Part shown: piece by piece, positions 25,201 to 34,751 of the stretch
Position numbering within the stretch: position 1 is the stretch's first letter
Layout: the number at the start of each line of letters is the position of its first letter
Assembly (NCBI GenBank): GCA_017557185.1
Contig: JAFZAP010000001.1
Location: 1-52,573 of the forward strand
DNA: 52,573 nucleotides
Source of the DNA: Prevotella sp.
Lineage (GTDB): Bacteria > Bacteroidota > Bacteroidia > Bacteroidales > Bacteroidaceae
Direction: 5' to 3'
Notes under the pieces: model-generated
The model's input: only the letters and a program-made list of their open reading frames with translations
What the model was told of the DNA's origin: nothing
The model's database searches: none
Made by a program: the position numbers and the translations under genes

Positions 25201-26696
25201 TCGACGTGGGCATAGTCAAGGGTATAATGGTTGGGGTCGTACGTTGTGCCTGCACCGCCCACGAGTTTAGCACAGTCGTAGAACATCATATTTTCATTTT
25301 GTACATTCGTCGTCGTCCAATTGCTGCCTACGATGATGGTGGTCAGCTCTCGACACGATTCGAACATAGCGTACATGTCCGTCACCGCCGCAGTACTGAA
25401 ACCGCTCAAGTCGAGGAAGGGTAGGCTCCAGCAATCATGGAACATAGATTGCATGCTGGTGACGCTGCTCGTGTTGAGGTATTCGAGGCCAGTAATATCG
25501 GTGAGAAGCGTCATATGCAAGAACCAGCGGGCCGTCGTGGTAGGTCGTGCGTCGGCAAACGACGGGTCGAACACCACTTTGGTGACATGAGCGTTCGTAT
25601 TATCTTTGTGCCAGCCAGGATAATCGCTACCTGTGTTCAAGTTGTAAGTCATACCTGTGCGCGTGTAGCGCAACTTGTCATAGTAGAATGTCAGCGTCGT
25701 GTTGTCGGAAGTGTACTCGGCATAGGGCACGGGGGCGGATATTTCAGTGAAGTATCCTGGACGAGCTGTACCGCCGTCGATGCGGGCGTATGTCTTGTCA
25801 ATATGATTTGCATCGTACGTCGTGCCCTGGCCGCCCACGATAAAGAGACAGAAATCGAACATATTTGATGAAATCGACACGGCATCCGTACTCCAGCCGT
25901 TGCCCGCATAGATGGTGGTGAGGTTGCTGCAGTTCTGAAACATGCTCGTCATTTCCGTCACTTTTGCCGTATTGAAGTTGCTCAGATCGAGTCTGGTAAG
26001 TCCTCTGCAGTTGAAGAACATGAATTCCATATGGGTAACGTTGGCGGTGTTGAAGTTGCTGACATCAAGGCTGGTGAGGCTGCTGCAGCCTTTGAACATG
26101 CCAGTCATTGACGTCACTTTTGCCGTATTGAAGTTACTGACATCGAGGCTGGTAAGGCTGCTACAGTCGTAGAACATGCAAGTCATTGACGTCACTTTTG
26201 CCGTATTGAAGTTACTGACATCGAGGCTCGTAAGGGCGGAACAATTGTAGAACATAAAAGACATATCAGTGACATTACTGGTGTTGAGGTAATTCATACC
26301 AGTGATGGTGGTTAGATTCTCCATGCTGAGGAACCAATAGTACGTGCTGGTAGGTCGTGCGTTGGCAAACGAGGAGTCGAACACTACAGTGGTGACGTTT
26401 GCGCGCGAATCGTCAGTATACCAACCCGGCACGTTACTGCCCGTGTTCAAGTCATAGGTGGTACCTGTGCGCGAGGTGCGCTGATTGTCGTAGTAGAAGG
26501 TAAAAGTCGTCTCGCTGGTGGACAACTCGGCGTACGCTTCCTGCGCCATACTCCTTGTGACGCCAACAATAGCCATTATCATGGCCAGTAGGAGCCTACC
26601 CCCTGCCCCTCCCTGAAGGGAAGGGGAAAGAAGCCCCACTCTAACCCTCCCCCGTAGGGAGGGAAGTAAATGATTAAAGAATGTTTTGGTTTTCAT
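16236..26696 (-). CDS. Giant BspA-like (DUF285) repeat surface protein with C-terminal dockerin
   Basis: This secreted protein has about 3,486 residues. After a signal peptide (about 1-52, ending RSMAQ) come 14 tandem modules of roughly 170-350 residues. Each opens with a strand set (YAVLSTDxTTLTFYYDG), then VVFDxSFAxARPTSTYxWF, then a variable number of DUF285/BspA repeats (LTSLDLSxFNTxxVTxMxxMFxxC), and closes with DKxYAHIDGGxxNPGYFT. The last 65 residues form a type I dockerin with two Ca-binding loops (GDVNGDGKVDVADV and ADVDGSGGVNRDDI). BspA-type proteins are surface adhesins; dockerins bind cohesins. No T9SS tail or lipobox is seen. Start: the Met at 26696 opens MKTKTFFNHLL and the signal peptide; an upstream Met at 26777 is unlikely. 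The n-region contains a REP-like insertion. Confidence 0.9.
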   Translation of the reverse strand: MKTKTFFNHLLPSLRGRVRVGLLSPSLQGGAGGRLLLAMIMAIVGVTRSMAQEAYAELSTSETTFTFYYDNQRTSRTGTTYDLNTGSNVPGWYTDDSRANVTTVVFDSSFANARPTSTYYWFLSMENLTTITGMNYLNTSNVTDMSFMFYNCSALTSLDVSNFNTAKVTSMTCMFYDCSSLTSLDVSNFNTAKVTSMTGMFKGCSSLTSLDVSNFNTANVTHMEFMFFNCRGLTRLDLSNFNTAKVTEMTSMFQNCSNLTTIYAGNGWSTDAVSISSNMFDFCLFIVGGQGTTYDANHIDKTYARIDGGTARPGYFTEISAPVPYAEYTSDNTTLTFYYDKLRYTRTGMTYNLNTGSDYPGWHKDNTNAHVTKVVFDPSFADARPTTTARWFLHMTLLTDITGLEYLNTSSVTSMQSMFHDCWSLPFLDLSGFSTAAVTDMYAMFESCRELTTIIVGSNWTTTNVQNENMMFYDCAKLVGGAGTTYDPNHYTLDYAHVDGGSANPGYFTDTSDRQPYAALSDNNTKLTFYCDGLKNFRSSLDLNTGDNEPAWIGANLVTTVVFDASFAAARPTSTYHWFKNKPQLTSITGLEYLNTSQVTNMESMFDMCATLNSLDVSGFNTASVTKMRNMFSNCAELTSLNVKDWDTGNVTDMYGMFSGCTHLASLNVSNWNTGKVANMQNMFANCSALASLDVSEWNTASVTNMLSMFENCSSLTNLDLNSWNTGNVDLMYNMFKGCSNLARLKVSNWNTSKVTDMGSMFNGCSKLTTLDLSGWNTALVRNMSGMFAYCSSLRTISVGNNWSTSSVSTSDYMFLSCNNLVGGAGTTYSSSHQDAGYAHLDGGTSNPGYLSGLPYAVFNSINEQLTFYFDGNQGSYGGGSSTVYYVNNDAVYPSWLEKKAAIKYVNFDASFAYARPTRTSYWFDEMTNLVSISNIENLNTSEVTTMSGMFYNCSSLKNLDLSSFDTGNVTDMSGMFTGCSSLINLNVSNWNTSNVTNMSQLFFNCSSLATLDLSGWNTGNIGYISTMFSGCSSLTTIYAGSGWNVESVENSQNMFKDCTSLVGGAGTTFDAGKTDKTYARIDGVNGKKGYLSANPYAFLSSDNKTLTFYCDGKRTEREATGTVYNLNTENHDPGWYDKRTSVTTVVFDASFAQARPTSTYNWFRGMSNLTTITNIRKLNTSSVTNMRYMFSACAKLTSLDLSSFNTENVTDMYGLFYNSTGLTSVDVSSFNTANVTLMTNMFWYCSKLTSLDLGSFNTANVTSMYGMFEGCSSLKTVFVSGSWNTDAVTSSTNMFKNCTSLEGGGGTTFDSGKTDKAYAHIDGGATNPGYFTATPYVVVSNNGKTLTFYNDGMPKGTYDGTYYNLNTVESLPGWLIATDITTVVFDASFGGARPTTTNYWFYNLQNLETITGMEYLNTSEVTNMNAMFQNCQKLTSLNLSKWNTSKVTNMNAMFYGCSALVSILVGDGWNTDNVTESDQMFSDCTNLKGGAGTTYDENHVDKAYAIVDGTDGNPGYLSGEPYARYGIYSHELYFSCDGRRSYYENDSGYNVYDLNTGTTQPGWYDKHAEVATVRFEWTFAAARPTSTFAWFKGMTNIVGIDGLEYLNTSEVTRMDQMFYDCSQLATLDLSGFNTAKVNVMDNMFKNCSTLTILDLSSFSSSWIFTNYMFQNCSSLTTIYVGSGWSQTTLSNSTDMFDGCTNLVGGAGTAYNDANPKDKTYAHVDGGTSNPGYLTDISAREGYAVYTADNTTLTFYFDGKRSSRTGTTYDLNTGNSEPAWYYANYEYGIYEDVTNVVFNSSFAEARPTSTSNWFLEMENLTTITGIEYLNTSEVTTMAGMFSTCSNLTSLDLSHFDTGNVTDMTSMFDYCINLTSLDLSHFDTSKVTDMAFMFNHCSGLTTLDLSSFNTANVTNMASMFNTCSNLTTIIVGEGWDTEKVRTSGDMFIDCRNLKGSAGTAYNDENPVDKTYARIDGGTVSPGYLTSLPYVVLNTETQTITYYSDGKKGTHTAENELTCNLNGEDFELAWMEFQQMNYDKIKYAVIDPSFAAARITSMRGWFGGFYELESITGLEYLNTSAVTNMASMFDGCLKLASLDLSHFDTSNVTDMSGMFSACRSLTSLDVSGFNTENVTDMRSMFSSCTGLTSLYLGSFNTSKVTIMTSMFSGCSNLTTIYVDEDNWSTSSVPYLSNGQFMFNGCTKLVGGNGTRFSADHVDYDYAHIDAAGNPGYLTAASQIQTEAYAVYTEDNTTLTFYYDKLRLTRTNRTFDLNTYSNEPDWVHEGWNAPVTNVVFDPSFATARPTTTYEWFRDMTNLTTITGIEYLNTSEVTSMAIMFLNCSSLTTLDVSSFNTAKVTSMRWMFWGCSSLTTLDLSTFNTENVTDMRDIFYGCSSLESLDLSSFNTQNVTDMFGMFWGCSSLTTLDLSTFNTENVTDMGYMFSGCSSLESLNVSSFNTANVTNMTDMFTDCSALTTLDLSHFDTGKVTDMSNMFYWCIGLTSLNLSNWNTANVTNMSFMFSTCNQLTTLDLSSFNTANVTNMNSMFSYCKTLTTIYVGDGWNTDAVTSSYWMFTGCKVLVGGNGTAYSENHQDAEYAHIDVAGNPGYFTEKLVPYAVLSTDETTLTFYYDGMKDSREGMKFDIPWEGYPDWTNSDANPITTVDFDESFADYDDLNSTYGMFYRLQNLTTINNLDRLNTEEVTTMELMFSSCSNLESVDVSHFNTEKVTNMRRMFSYCGSLEELDLLNFNTEQVTDMNGMFNACSSLTELNLSNFNTEQVTDMYWMFHYCTKLTTINVGDGWSTDAVTSSNDMFLDSPALVGGQGTTYDADHVDAEYAHVDGGASNPGYFTDKPAEAYAVYTDDNTTLTFYFDNQRSSRTGTTYDLNTGSNVPDWKTIQASVTNVVFDSSFADARPTTTYLWFWGMQELTTFTGMENLNTSEVTNMYGMFMSCWSLETLDLSNFNTAKVTNMDWMLSCCKSLTTIYVGDGWSTSAVTISDYMFSGSSSLVGDKGTTYSEEHVNKGYAHIDGGASYPGYFSEPPVVPYAVLSTDGTTLTFYYDSMKSKREGKKYNVPNGEYAPDWFWANGEDNPKANIETVVFDESFAEVRPHYTYCWFGGMNKLSTITGLEYLNTSEVTNMGQMFRDCGSLTSLDLSNFDTKNVTNMAAMFRFCSSLVTVEVSQKWSTANVTESDIMFESCTSIVGGNGTTFDENHIDKAYAHVDGGPSDPGYFTEKPIEIYAVISTDGKTLSFYYDSMKSKREGTKYNVPNGNYSPDWYFDNAYSNIETAVFDESFADVRPHYTCCWFGGMSNLTTITGLEYLNTSEVTNMSQMFFDCGSLTSLDLSGFDTKNVTNMVAMFRSCSRLVTVEVSQKWSTANVTLSNNMFDNCTSIVGGNGTTFDENHIDKEYAHVDGGTSDPGYFTYKASVLLGDVNGDGKVDVADVTALTNHLLGTGGSYNEQAADVDGSGGVNRDDISALVQLVLGQ
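26598..26666 (-). repeat. Two REP-like palindromes inside the signal-peptide coding region
   Basis: On the coding strand, CCCTCCCTACGGGGGAGGG and, about 17 bp later, CCCCTTCCCTTCAGGGAGGGG-type palindromes occur in tandem. They encode residues about 11-33 (LPSLRGRVRVG, LSPSLQGGAGG) between the start MKTKTFFNH and the hydrophobic core. The sequence matches the intergenic REP-like family of this window. Confidence 0.8.
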
Positions 26697-28120: not shown

Positions 28121-28475
28121 TCATTTTTTACCTCCCAACCTCCCGTTTTGTCCGTAACTATCTCTGTGTCAAACATTTAGGCAATAGCTAACCTCCCGTC
28201 ATACCTCCCGTCACACCTCCCATTAACCTCCCGTCTGCCCCACCCCCGAAGGGGGGAATGAAAGCCTCACCCCAGCCCTCTCCAAAGGGAGAGGGAGTTC
28301 AGAGCTGTTGACTTTTCCTTGATAACACTTTTTGTTGTTGCCCCCTCCCCTTGGGGAGGGTTGGGGTGGGACTGACGGGAGGTTGACGGGAGGTATTTTT
28401 GCGACACCTCCCGTGCCGCAACCCCTTTGTAGAAAGGCGTTTCAGAAGAAAACGGGAGGATGGGAGGTTAAAATG
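28121..28475. repeat. 355-bp inverted-repeat element built of CCTCCCGT motifs and REP-like palindromes
   Basis: The left end ACCTCCCAACCTCCCGTTTT (28130-28149) is mirrored at the right end, where 28449-28470 reads AAAACGGGAGGATGGGAGGT. Inside, repeated ACCTCCCGTC motifs on the left (28191-28235) face GACGGGAGGT motifs on the right (28375-28395). REP-like palindromes lie inward at 28238-28258, 28276-28296 and 28341-28372. No convincing gene is present, so it is a non-autonomous mobile element or a structured non-coding locus. Confidence 0.7.
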
Positions 28476-32075: not shown

Positions 32076-33857
32076 ATGAAGATAGAACAACAGATTGTGA
32101 GCGGCGTCGTGGCCGCAGTGAGTGAGTTGTATGGCCAGCAGGTGGCCGAGAGTCAGGTGCAGTTGCAGAAGACACGCGCCGAGTTTGAGGGAAACCTCAC
32201 GGTGGTGGTGTTCCCGTTTGTGAAGATGGCACGCAAGAGCCCCGAGCAGACGGCTCAGGAGATTGGACAGTGGCTCGTCGGCAACTGTGAGGCCGTGAGC
32301 GCCTGCAATGCCGTGAAGGGATTCCTGAATCTCACGGTGGCTCCCCAGGCTTGGGAGCAGTTGCTTGCCGATATCGATAAGGACGAACAGTGGGGCTACA
32401 AGGCTGTCACTGAGCAGTCTCCGCTGGTGATGATAGAGTATTCCTCGCCCAACACCAATAAGCCGTTGCACCTCGGACATGTGCGCAACAACCTGCTGGG
32501 CTGGTCGCTGGCACAGATTATGGAGGCCAACGGAAACCGTGTGGTGAAGACGAATATCGTGAACGACCGCGGTATTCACATCTGCAAGTCGATGCTCGCT
32601 TGGCAGAAGTGGGGCAATGGCGAGACGCCGGCCTCGAGTGGCAAGAAGGGTGATCACCTCATCGGCGACTACTACGTGCTCTTCGACAAGCACTATCGCG
32701 AGGAGGTGAAAGCGCTTGTTGCCAATGGTATGGACGAGGAGCAAGCCAAGCAGGAGGCTCCGCTCATCAAGGAAGCTCACGAGATGCTCGTCAGATGGGA
32801 GCAGAACGATCCTGAGGTTCGCCAGCTCTGGCAGATGATGAACGACTGGGTGTATGCCGGTTTCGACGAAACCTACAAGGCGCTGGGTGTGAGCTTCGAC
32901 AAGATCTACTACGAGTCGCAGACCTACCTCGTCGGTAAGAAGAAGGTGGAAGAGGGCCTGGAGAAAGGACTGTTCTTCCGCAAGGAAGACGGTTCGGTAT
33001 GGGCCGACCTCACCGATGCCGGTCTCGACCAGAAGCTGTTGCTCAGAAGCGACGGCACCTCGGTCTATATGACGCAGGACATCGGTACGGCACAGATGCG
33101 CTTCGAGGACTATCCCATTGACAAGATGATCTATGTGGTCGGCAACGAACAGAACTACCATTTCCAGGTGCTCTCGCTGCTGCTCGACCGTCTGGGCTTC
33201 AAGTGGGGTAAGGAACTGGTGCACTTCTCGTATGGTATGGTGGAACTGCCCAACGGAAAGATGAAGAGCCGCGAGGGAACAGTTGTCGATGCCGACGACC
33301 TGATGCAACTCATGGTCGACGATGCACGCCGCGTGGCCGATGAGGCTGGTAAGACTGCCGATATGAGCGAGGAGGAGCGTCAGCAGATTGCCCGTATCGT
33401 AGGTATGGGTGCCCTGAAGTACTTCATCCTGAAGGTGGACGCTCGCAAGAATATGCTCTTCAATCCTGAGGAGTCGATTGACTTCAATGGCAACACGGGT
33501 CCCTTCATCCAGTATACCCACGCCCGCATCCGCTCGATTCTGCGCAAGAGCGAGGGTGAAGGCAGCCTGTCGGCGGCTGGCTATCAACTGAACGCGAAGG
33601 AGACGGCGCTCATCCAGAAACTGAATGAATTCCCCGCTGCCGTAGAGCAGGCAGGCAAGGATTATTCGCCGTCGGGCATCGCCAACTACTGCTACGAGCT
33701 GACGAAGGAGTTCAACCAGTTCTATCACGACTACAGTATCTTGAATGCGGAGAGCGAGGGAGCGAAGGCTATGCGCCTCGTCATCGCCCGCAACGTCGCC
33801 AAGACGCTGAAGAACGGTATGGCGCTACTCGGAATAGAGGTGCCGGAGAGGATGTAA
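32076..33857 (+). CDS. argS: Arginyl-tRNA synthetase
   Basis: This class I aminoacyl-tRNA synthetase of 593 residues is the usual bacterial length. Visible features are an N-terminal Add-1-like domain (1-90), the HIGH motif as HLGHVRN at about 132-138 within SSPNTNKPLHLGHVR, a KMSKS-like KMKSREG near residue 390, and a C-terminal anticodon-binding helical domain ending in LLGIEVPERM (DALR domain). It charges tRNA-Arg. The 45-bp gap after the CotH gene contains CCCTTTAAGCCCTTAAAAA, an inverted form of a motif seen near 15895 and 42716. A REP-like palindrome begins two bases after the stop codon. Confidence 0.97.
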   Translation: MKIEQQIVSGVVAAVSELYGQQVAESQVQLQKTRAEFEGNLTVVVFPFVKMARKSPEQTAQEIGQWLVGNCEAVSACNAVKGFLNLTVAPQAWEQLLADIDKDEQWGYKAVTEQSPLVMIEYSSPNTNKPLHLGHVRNNLLGWSLAQIMEANGNRVVKTNIVNDRGIHICKSMLAWQKWGNGETPASSGKKGDHLIGDYYVLFDKHYREEVKALVANGMDEEQAKQEAPLIKEAHEMLVRWEQNDPEVRQLWQMMNDWVYAGFDETYKALGVSFDKIYYESQTYLVGKKKVEEGLEKGLFFRKEDGSVWADLTDAGLDQKLLLRSDGTSVYMTQDIGTAQMRFEDYPIDKMIYVVGNEQNYHFQVLSLLLDRLGFKWGKELVHFSYGMVELPNGKMKSREGTVVDADDLMQLMVDDARRVADEAGKTADMSEEERQQIARIVGMGALKYFILKVDARKNMLFNPEESIDFNGNTGPFIQYTHARIRSILRKSEGEGSLSAAGYQLNAKETALIQKLNEFPAAVEQAGKDYSPSGIANYCYELTKEFNQFYHDYSILNAESEGAKAMRLVIARNVAKTLKNGMALLGIEVPERM

Positions 33858-33858
33858 T

Positions 33859-33897
33859 GCCCCACCCCGGCCCTCCCCAAAGGGGGAGGGGGACGGT
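33859..33897. repeat. REP-like palindrome upstream of the DUF559 segment
   Basis: GGCCCTCCCCAAAGGGGGAGGG preceded by CCCCACCCC forms a strong GC-rich hairpin. It is in inverted orientation relative to the copy at 34301-34346, so the nuclease coding segment between them is bracketed by facing copies. Confidence 0.8.
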
Positions 33898-33911
33898 TCA
33901 GAGTGTAGCAT

Positions 33912-34751
33912 ATGTATATCTATGAGACTGGAAGTGAGAACTACGACTTGCTCAAAGAATTTGCGGAGCATAATCGGAAGTATCCAACAGAAGCAGAACG
34001 CGTTCTTTGGAGCCTCATAAGGAATAAGAATATAGGTGACAAGTTTCGTAGACAGCATATCATTGGCAACTATATTGCTGATTTCGCTAACCTTCATTAC
34101 CATCTCGTCATAGAAATTGATGGCGGCTATCATCTCGAAGATTCACAATTCGTGAAAGATGAGTATCGCACAGAAAAACTGGCAGAGAGGGGATTTGATG
34201 TGATTCGATTCTCAAATGAGGAAGTAATAGGGAATCCTGAAAGAACACTCTCCATCATTAAACAAAAAATCATGGAAATAGAAAGTAAAACCAACAACGT
34301 GGCTCCCCTCCCTTCGGAGGGGACGGGGGAGGCTCGCAGTGGGGCGGCCGCTCGTGGCGGCTGGGCAGTCGACGCAGCTTGTTCGGGCAACCCAGGACCG
34401 ATGGAGTATCAAGCGATAGATTTGCAGACGGGTGCACAAGTGTTTCATTTCGGTCCGATAAAAGGGACGAACAACATCGGGGAGTTCCTCGCTATCGTCC
34501 ATGCGTTGGCACTGATGGAGAAGCAGGGAATTACCGACAAGGTCATCTATTCCGATTCATACAACGCCATCCTGTGGGTTCAGAAAAAACAATGCAAGAC
34601 AAAACTGGAGCACACTCCTGAAACGGAACCGACTTATCAAATCATCCGAAGAGCCGAAACCTGGCTACGCACCCACCCGGTGAGAACGCCCATTATCAAA
34701 TGGGATACGCAGAACTGGGGCGAGATTCCTGCCGACTTCGGGAGAAAATAA
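33912..34751 (+). CDS. DUF559 endonuclease-like domain fused to ribonuclease H
   Basis: One continuous frame of 279 residues joins two unrelated domains. Residues 1-120 are DUF559, a very-short-patch-repair/restriction-like nuclease fold, with PTEAERVLW, ADFANLHYHLVIEIDGGYH (candidate catalytic Asp57, Glu68, Asp70, His74) and the FDVIRFSNEEV strand. Residues 131-150 (APLPSEGTGEARSGAAARGG) come from a REP-like palindrome. Residues 151-279 are RNase HI of the Bacteroidetes type, with acidic residues Asp154 (VDAACSGNPGP), Glu191 (GTNNIGEFLAI), Asp215 (IYSDSYNA) and Asp275, all intact. The usual N-terminal part of Bacteroidetes RNase H genes is missing. Best explanation: a mobile DUF559 unit replaced the 5' end of a host RNase H gene. 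Whether RNase H is also made from an internal start is unclear. Confidence 0.85.
   Translation: MYIYETGSENYDLLKEFAEHNRKYPTEAERVLWSLIRNKNIGDKFRRQHIIGNYIADFANLHYHLVIEIDGGYHLEDSQFVKDEYRTEKLAERGFDVIRFSNEEVIGNPERTLSIIKQKIMEIESKTNNVAPLPSEGTGEARSGAAARGGWAVDAACSGNPGPMEYQAIDLQTGAQVFHFGPIKGTNNIGEFLAIVHALALMEKQGITDKVIYSDSYNAILWVQKKQCKTKLEHTPETEPTYQIIRRAETWLRTHPVRTPIIKWDTQNWGEIPADFGRK
34301..34346. repeat. REP-like palindrome in frame at the DUF559-RNase H junction
   Basis: CCCCTCCCTTCGGAGGGG followed by ACGGGGGAGG and ending GTGGGGC. The order is the reverse complement of the copy at 33859-33897. It is read through in the fusion frame and supplies the linker. Confidence 0.8.

Follow-up and report, generated by a model that had tools for sequence, protein, structure and literature searches.

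The stretch analyzed here (the window) comprises 52,573 nucleotides of a Prevotella sp. genome (GenBank assembly GCA_017557185.1, contig JAFZAP010000001.1, positions 1 to 52,573 of the forward strand). Between argS and a gene for an RNase H-like protein it carries a short segment in which a DUF559 (PF04480) nuclease domain lies between two facing C-rich palindromes (Table 1). The first-pass annotation of the window proposed that this segment could be a REPtron-like unit, that is, a small gene enclosed by inverted copies of a repetitive extragenic palindrome (REP). Comparison with genomes of the same genus and of more distant groups leads us to favor, with a probability of roughly 0.7, a model in which the bracketed segment is a minimal mobile element, composed of one PD-(D/E)XK nuclease gene of the Vsr/homing type and inverted C-rich hairpin ends, with derivatives that resemble REPINs (paired REP sequences). 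In relatives the element is ~440-690 bp long.

The palindromes of the window have 8-bp arms, CCCTCCCC/GGGGAGGG at 33871-33878 and 33883-33890 on the left and TCCCCTCC/GGAGGGGA at 34304-34311 and 34316-34323 on the right. The DUF559 domain (318 nt) is the sole protein domain found between them and scores 100 bits against a curated PF04480 cut-off of 20.6. The genome has 19 exact copies of the left palindrome, this one included, with surroundings that are otherwise unrelated; their alignment delimits a sharply bounded unit made of AGCCCCACCCCnG, the hairpin CCCTCCCCAAAGGGGGAGGG and AGA. A palindrome-pattern search of the window with up to three mismatches returned six matches at four places (shuffling expects 0.01) and found the left palindrome but not the right one. 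The inverted-repeat score of the two ends is 8, the background level, and they seem to represent separate subfamilies within a single class. Folded as single strands, the window palindromes did no better than shuffles (z -0.56 and -1.16). The nuclease frame passes through the right palindrome into the RNase H-like domain, and the N-terminal stretch of the RNase H gene that is present in relatives is lost at this site. The initial description of facing palindromes that enclose only the DUF559 segment was thus right about their orientation and the domain between them, but they are not close copies and the frame continues past the right one. With argS on one side and the RNase H gene on the other, the copy in the window appears to be an old unit. 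DUF559 is fused ahead of this RNase H-like gene in six of the 52 genomes that have this gene (G000, G008, G016, G030, G046 and G056), and because five of these six fail the bracket score described below, the ends may have decayed while the fusion was kept for a function.

Bracketing was assessed with an inverted-repeat test on flanks of up to 250 bp, in which a score of at least 13 is a pass; this threshold was chosen after the genus data had been seen and was left unchanged thereafter. PF04480 is matched in 37 of 60 same-genus genomes. Once fragments and weak matches were dropped, 70 full-length matches remained, of which 54 pass (53 of 69 and, with a score of 26, the seventieth, G049:C231), compared with 3 of 468 shifted placements on the same loci. 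The outer length of 53 bracketed genus units has a median of 523 and a range of 437-692. At the level of the phylum, where 170 of 296 genomes have a match, 16 of the best 30 loci score at least 13, as does 1 of 52 shifted placements. A cross-group set was drawn from 80 named loci among the matches listed, seven of which were dropped as near contig ends; the remaining 73 fall into eleven groups assigned from record titles, including Cyanobacteria, Chloroflexi, Bacteroidota, Proteobacteria, Desulfobacterota, Planctomycetes and Patescibacteria. Among these listed matches 42 of 73 loci reach 13, compared with 7 of 1200 shifted placements and 7 of 408 small open reading frames (ORFs; mechanical ORFs of 85-260 aa, not verified genes), and at a score of at least 20 the numbers are 23 of 73, none and none. 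Nine of the eleven groups contain bracketed examples among the matches listed, and the single loci from Latescibacterota and Nitrospirae fail. The rates for the named and phylum loci are not unbiased, because the pattern search favors well-conserved proteins and the phylum loci are the best scorers. On plasmids and phages, 5 of 14 loci pass (14 were read of 57 records with a match), and at least 4 of 280 shifted placements reach 13 by per-locus maxima.

RNase H genes, used as a control at their true positions, are bracketed in 0 of 26 cases, and a fixed position gave the same 0 of 26. GIY-YIG genes could not serve as a control, since nearly all of these loci are frames of more than 600 aa, which we take to be UvrC, rather than small genes. 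The shifted placements, small ORFs and RNase H genes lead us to reject chance, or a neighborhood effect of palindrome-rich genomes, as the source of the brackets. The check that the first-pass annotation had proposed, a comparison of DUF559 genes with other genes, shows strong enrichment of palindromes beside the former, and its statement that DUF559 genes in other phyla often adjoin such palindromes agrees with the 42 of 73 cross-group loci among the matches listed.

The source assembly (3.35 Mb, 89% complete) has seven PF04480 matches, consisting of six full DUF559 domains and one weak match to a PF13366 gene. Inspected by eye, each of the six DUF559 genes occupies a site of its own and is enclosed by facing C-rich palindromes (Table 1); five of them pass the inverted-repeat test with scores of 37, 41, 19, 30 and 19. 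The PriA site could be read in 29 of 59 other same-genus genomes, and the nuclease insert is present in 0 of the 29. In G047, one of the two closest (91% identity), PriA reads ..ARSVAIMMGAKVLLGTATPS.., and in the source genome the whole unit lies in frame between G and A; we infer this exact junction, because loop length there varies among relatives. By eye, the PriA genes of the relatives L158 and L166 carry one palindrome and a facing pair, respectively, translated in frame slightly further on and without a nuclease. For the remaining five sites the comparison used four relatives (G014, G047, G012 and G050), which gave four insert-free reads at ispF, four at gpsA, three at the RNase H gene (inverted in one of these three), two at the aminopeptidase gene and one at rpiB; every site that could be read lacks the insert, and the other comparisons yielded either no flank pair or no read. 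Intergenic divergence was too large to fix every junction to the base, so that the empty sites sought at the outset do exist in relatives but without exact junctions at every site.

Table 1. Features in the window and sites of DUF559 genes in the source genome
Feature	Position	Strand	Remarks
argS (arginine--tRNA ligase), host gene upstream	32076..33857	+	element starts straight after the argS stop codon
Left end, REP-like unit: outer C-tract GCCCCACCCC, then hairpin CCCTCCCC-AAAG-GGGGAGGG	33859..33896	+	exact genome copies, common sharp outer boundary
DUF559 (PF04480) PD-(D/E)XK nuclease domain	33954..34271	+	Pfam, E 9.1e-29 on the fused frame
Right end, facing palindrome: hairpin TCCCCTCC-CTTC-GGAGGGGA, outer tract on the right	34301..34346	-	differs in subfamily from the left end
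Open frame, 279 aa: DUF559, translated right palindrome and RNase H-like C-terminal part	33912..34751	+	
RNase H-like host gene part, fused downstream	34353..34748	+	N-terminal stretch of relatives (..NPPxYRxDTVLPLP..) gone here
Second facing palindrome pair, no nuclease gene, 47 bp between hairpins	28276..28361	.	REPIN-like or MITE-like (miniature inverted-repeat transposable element) derivative
Source-genome site 1			between lysS and gpsA
Source-genome site 2			between porV and ispF, fused to IspF
Source-genome site 3			ahead of the Xaa-Pro aminopeptidase gene
Source-genome site 4			inside PriA, open frame
Source-genome site 5			between the transketolase gene and rpiB, fused to RpiB
Source-genome site 6			the window: between argS and RNase H, fused

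A further C-rich palindrome of the same class, again without a nuclease gene, lies at positions 26607-26663 of the window.

Insertion can preserve the host frame. Pfam searches of nine long frames place DUF559 inside PriA, leucyl-tRNA synthetase (with two separate insertion points, L172 and L057), MetH, HsdR, HsdM, an Eco57I-type methylase (L216, near a BREX gene) and two AAA helicases; IleS, a host suggested by eye, was rejected when Pfam gave leucyl-tRNA synthetase. Among the 53 genus units, the nuclease frame is open past both ends in 6, downstream only in 13, upstream only in 3 and past neither end in 31. The C-rich ends can be read without stop codons, and insertion in or beside a gene can therefore keep the reading frame, which offers a route by which proteins acquire internal domains. 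No target-site duplication was found at these 53 units, as sequences just outside the ends match at 0.15-0.30 over lengths of 3-9, approximately the chance level.

The palindromes and the nuclease also go together in number and kind. Counted as CCCTCCC N0-8 GGGAGGG in 60 genomes, palindromes track the number of full-length DUF559 genes (Spearman 0.75, p 6e-12, in 33 genomes with and 27 without the gene, kinship ignored; 0.63 after subtraction of two ends per gene). Between genomes, similarity of the ends follows similarity of the nucleases (Mantel rho 0.47, p 0.0005): the nearest protein neighbor has ends more alike than average in 46 of 53 cases, and units from the same genome are no more similar than units from different genomes. 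Runs of at least three C and at least three G occur in the left ends of 53 of 53 genus units and 31 of 42 cross-group bracketed units (among the matches listed). Adjacent hairpins within 1 kb, oriented at 39 DUF559-bearing loci (759 kb), form 37 facing pairs, 4 pairs that point away, 22 in the same direction and 13 that are unclear. DUF559 is held by 20 of the facing pairs (408-786 bp apart) and is missing from 17, of which 15 are 7-103 bp apart.

A second nuclease family turned out to be bracketed as well. PF13366 (PDDEXK_3/GxxExxY) loci had been taken as a negative control, but 22 of 30 in the genus (L334-L363) and 19 of 30 in the phylum (L394-L423) pass, compared with 0 of 60 shifted placements in the phylum, so that the family fails as a control for any small nuclease. 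The end class is another one: PF13366 brackets are inverted arrays of a ~10-nt unit repeated about three times (for example AACCACAGAGTTCACAGAGTTACGCAGAG; in the source genome, G000:C42:129723-130049), and 0 of 41 bracketed units have left ends with the C and G runs found for DUF559. These data indicate that bracketing as such is not peculiar to DUF559. PF13366 looks like a second, parallel element family, and a second nuclease family with a different end class suggests a general principle.

Could another enzyme, such as a Y1 (REP-associated tyrosine, RAYT) transposase, or recombination move the palindrome pairs with DUF559 as cargo? Many palindrome units lack a DUF559 gene, Y1_Tnp genes are present in 35 of the 60 genomes, and four of eight Y1 loci reach the bracket threshold, their repeats having other sequences; for REP transposases this would not be surprising. 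Palindrome number, however, does not track Y1_Tnp number (rho 0.18, p 0.17, 60 genomes), which led us to reject RAYT as the mover in the genus, and G019 holds 217 palindromes with no Y1 match. A bias of cargo towards nucleases is conceivable, as our non-nuclease controls were unsorted small ORFs and RNase H genes, the latter never bracketed in the same genomes. Moreover, two nuclease families in the same genomes have different, family-specific ends, and the ends co-vary with nuclease sequence, properties that cargo should not show. We consider the passenger model unlikely and favor the mobile-element model, in which the nuclease and its ends form one unit.

The properties of the protein fit this assignment. 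As first proposed, it is a Vsr/restriction-like nuclease, matching PF04480 and a PD-(D/E)XK fold of the Vsr type. A profile search gave 3HRL (6.4e-31) and 3R3P, I-Bth0305I (6.7e-8), and Foldseek comparison of a predicted model (predicted local distance difference test score, pLDDT, 91) gave 3hrl (2.8e-7), 3r3p (2.2e-5) and 1vsr (0.017). E15, D43, E54 and D56 are kept in 98 of 98 bracketed copies and H60 in 96; in 51 unbracketed copies E15, E54 and H60 are invariant, with D43 in 49 and D56 in 48. Judging by the fold, these five are the probable catalytic residues. The ratio dN/dS is 0.14, 0.11 and 0.08 in three of eight pairs, dS being saturated in the other five. PADLOC returned a weak match to a homing-endonuclease model (L038, E 1.9e-5) and weak matches to restriction-enzyme models. 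YcjD, the Escherichia coli member of the family, was handled as a PD-(D/E)XK nuclease already in 2005 in the accessible part of one study (PMC1189080).

As judged by shared flank proteins, 69 units occupy 39 distinct sites, and 13 groups with 43 units have both flanks in common. Matching DNA of at least 250 bp links 42 pairs of units, whose flanks are unrelated in 25 and homologous in 17. In ten of these 17 same-site pairs that were examined, DUF559 identity is 70-88% and flank identity 69-88%. These alignments indicate that movement and long residence both occur. One same-site pair (G046:C15 and G029:C94) is 88% identical in the nuclease DNA and 76-77% in the flanks, a pattern that homing or horizontal replacement would produce.

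That pair and the recurrent sites raise the possibility that DUF559 cuts insert-free alleles and is copied by recombination into the same site, with the palindromes secondary and serving as insulation, terminators or in-frame linkers. Such a view accords with the weak PADLOC match and with the closest solved relative outside the family, I-Bth0305I, which is a homing endonuclease. It is difficult to reconcile with 39 distinct sites for 69 units, with the other nine same-site pairs, which diverge about as much as their flanks or more, and with palindromes that are dispersed without the gene and whose number tracks gene number. Homing as the whole explanation seems improbable to us; these elements may use it as a second mode. 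That DUF559 is instead a Vsr-like repair or defense nuclease beside terminators or regulatory hairpins at gene ends, in line with its weak restriction-enzyme matches, is most improbable, because one would not expect terminators to come in matched inverted pairs beside members of a single gene family, to lie within open PriA or leucyl-tRNA synthetase frames, or to be missing at the same sites in relatives.

In E. coli, ycjD lies between sapF and fabI, and at least 80% of the ycjD query region is present in 3361 of 5426 complete genomes. Straight after the gene are two repeats in inverted orientation that we call BoxC-like by eye. BoxC itself was presumably first noticed near envM/fabI. In E. 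coli K-12 a duplicated 3' fragment of ycjD lies between the two BoxC-like repeats (L219:2775-3000, ycjD-fabI); this fragment has at most two copies per E. coli genome. A simple empty site for ycjD was not found: the three strains examined that lack the gene carry efflux genes there, described as the eef operon in the accessible part of PMC12817139. BoxC (also PIT or TM-ECO) is described as having 23 copies in MG1655 and five inverted pairs, as belonging to dispersed palindromes known since the 1990s without a mover, and as having no mobility gene around its repeats, in the accessible part of PMC4666352, a text from which the words DUF, endonuclease and Vsr are absent.

Several observations weigh against a mobile element. 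No movement event was observed in our sequence comparisons. Divergence between same-site copies is mostly similar to that of their flanks (ten of 17 pairs examined), which implies that much of the distribution reflects inheritance and loss, and the best same-genome pair of full units is ~66% identical (among 40 of 42 pairs listed), so that full units are not bursting at present. The bracket score is failed by 16 of 70 genus copies and, among the matches listed, 31 of 73 cross-group copies, the window copy included. The correlation over 60 genomes ignores their relatedness, and 5 of the 27 genomes without a full-length DUF559 gene hold at least four palindromes (4-23). Inverted-repeat bracketing is found also for PF13366 (41 of 60 loci) and Y1 (four of eight loci). 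Finally, the BoxC-like repeats lie only to the right of ycjD; the left side has an unrelated inverted repeat.

The association of DUF559 with its ends, the insertion of whole units and the specificity of the ends are nonetheless evident, and the DUF559 nuclease is the probable cause of movement. We envision a scenario in which the nuclease recognizes ends of its own class, probably in a form that replication exposes (cruciform, hairpin or triplex), and cuts at or beside the end. The unit, or the pair of ends alone, would then be copied or joined into a new place; the absence of a detectable target-site duplication is an observation, and the chemistry is what we envision. Ends free of stop codons would keep the frame and give rise to domain insertions and N-terminal fusions, as in the cases listed above. 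Ends without a gene, single or in short facing pairs such as those counted here, could be non-autonomous derivatives that are spread in trans, like REPINs. Old full units would persist by vertical descent at some sites, consistent with their flank-like divergence.

These findings lead us to a broader hypothesis, for which we see the evidence as evenly balanced. DUF559 and PF13366 could be two branches of an unrecognized class of minimal transposable elements, each with a lone PD-(D/E)XK nuclease gene and family-specific inverted ends (triplex-type C-rich hairpins for DUF559, iterated ~10-mers for PF13366), that insert beside genes or in frame inside them and are the source of much dispersed hairpin content in bacteria, including BoxC of E. 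coli with YcjD or relatives as its mover. If DUF559 nucleases are indeed the movers of such repeats, a widespread domain of unknown function gains a role and a repeat class an origin, hairpin repeats known for decades without a known mover could be explained, and E. coli K-12 would allow a test of transposition chemistry that relies on a lone Vsr/homing-type nuclease. We found no report that links DUF559 to palindromes, repeats or mobility in a literature search whose coverage excluded preprints and most subscription papers.

The DUF559 units share features with several known systems. Vsr, a mismatch repair enzyme that acts in very-short-patch repair, has a similar fold (1vsr). Like DDE transposons and insertion sequences, the units have terminal inverted repeats (54 of 70), but they lack the target-site duplication. 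Rickettsia palindromic elements offer another likeness, as they are palindromic DNA inserted in frame in protein genes; we know of no nuclease gene associated with them. The EDxHD homing endonucleases, to which we take I-Bth0305I (PDB 3r3p) to belong, have the same fold and a detectably similar sequence, and in this the nuclease is of a homing family. Unlike these enzymes, however, DUF559 units were seen without intron or intein, at many unrelated sites and within dispersed palindrome brackets, and in place of a single conserved cognate site there are 39 distinct ones for 69 units, 13 of which recur across genomes. The BoxC/PIT/TM-ECO intrastrand-triplex repeats, which occur in E. coli and further bacteria, are likewise C-rich, ~37 nt long and in part arranged as inverted pairs, two BoxC-like copies following ycjD, but they differ in being described, in the accessible part of PMC4666352, without any mobility gene around them.

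The closest parallel in layout is the REPtron, built on a Y1 HuH transposase (TnpA-REP/RAYT). In both, inverted copies of an abundant palindrome bracket a small nuclease gene, short facing pairs without the gene occur as well, and gene and repeat type go together. The DUF559 enzyme, however, is a PD-(D/E)XK and not a HuH-Y1 nuclease, and among the 106 ends of the 53 bracketed genus units a simple pattern finds GTAG or GTGG 5' of the hairpin foot in only one. We also noted GTAG just inside the hairpin on its 3' side, opposite to the REP foot, in 10 of 106 genus ends (for example L012 and L048). According to the accessible part of PMC6006769, a Y1 REPtron does not transpose as one unit, whereas DUF559 units appear to insert as units, sometimes in frame. 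The REPtron-like unit first proposed for the window is therefore REPtron-like in its arrangement of inverted palindromes around a small gene but, not being HuH and nearly lacking the GTAG foot, it is not a member of that group. The arrangement, which recurs in many bacterial groups, suggests a very small type of mobile element that has yet to be named.
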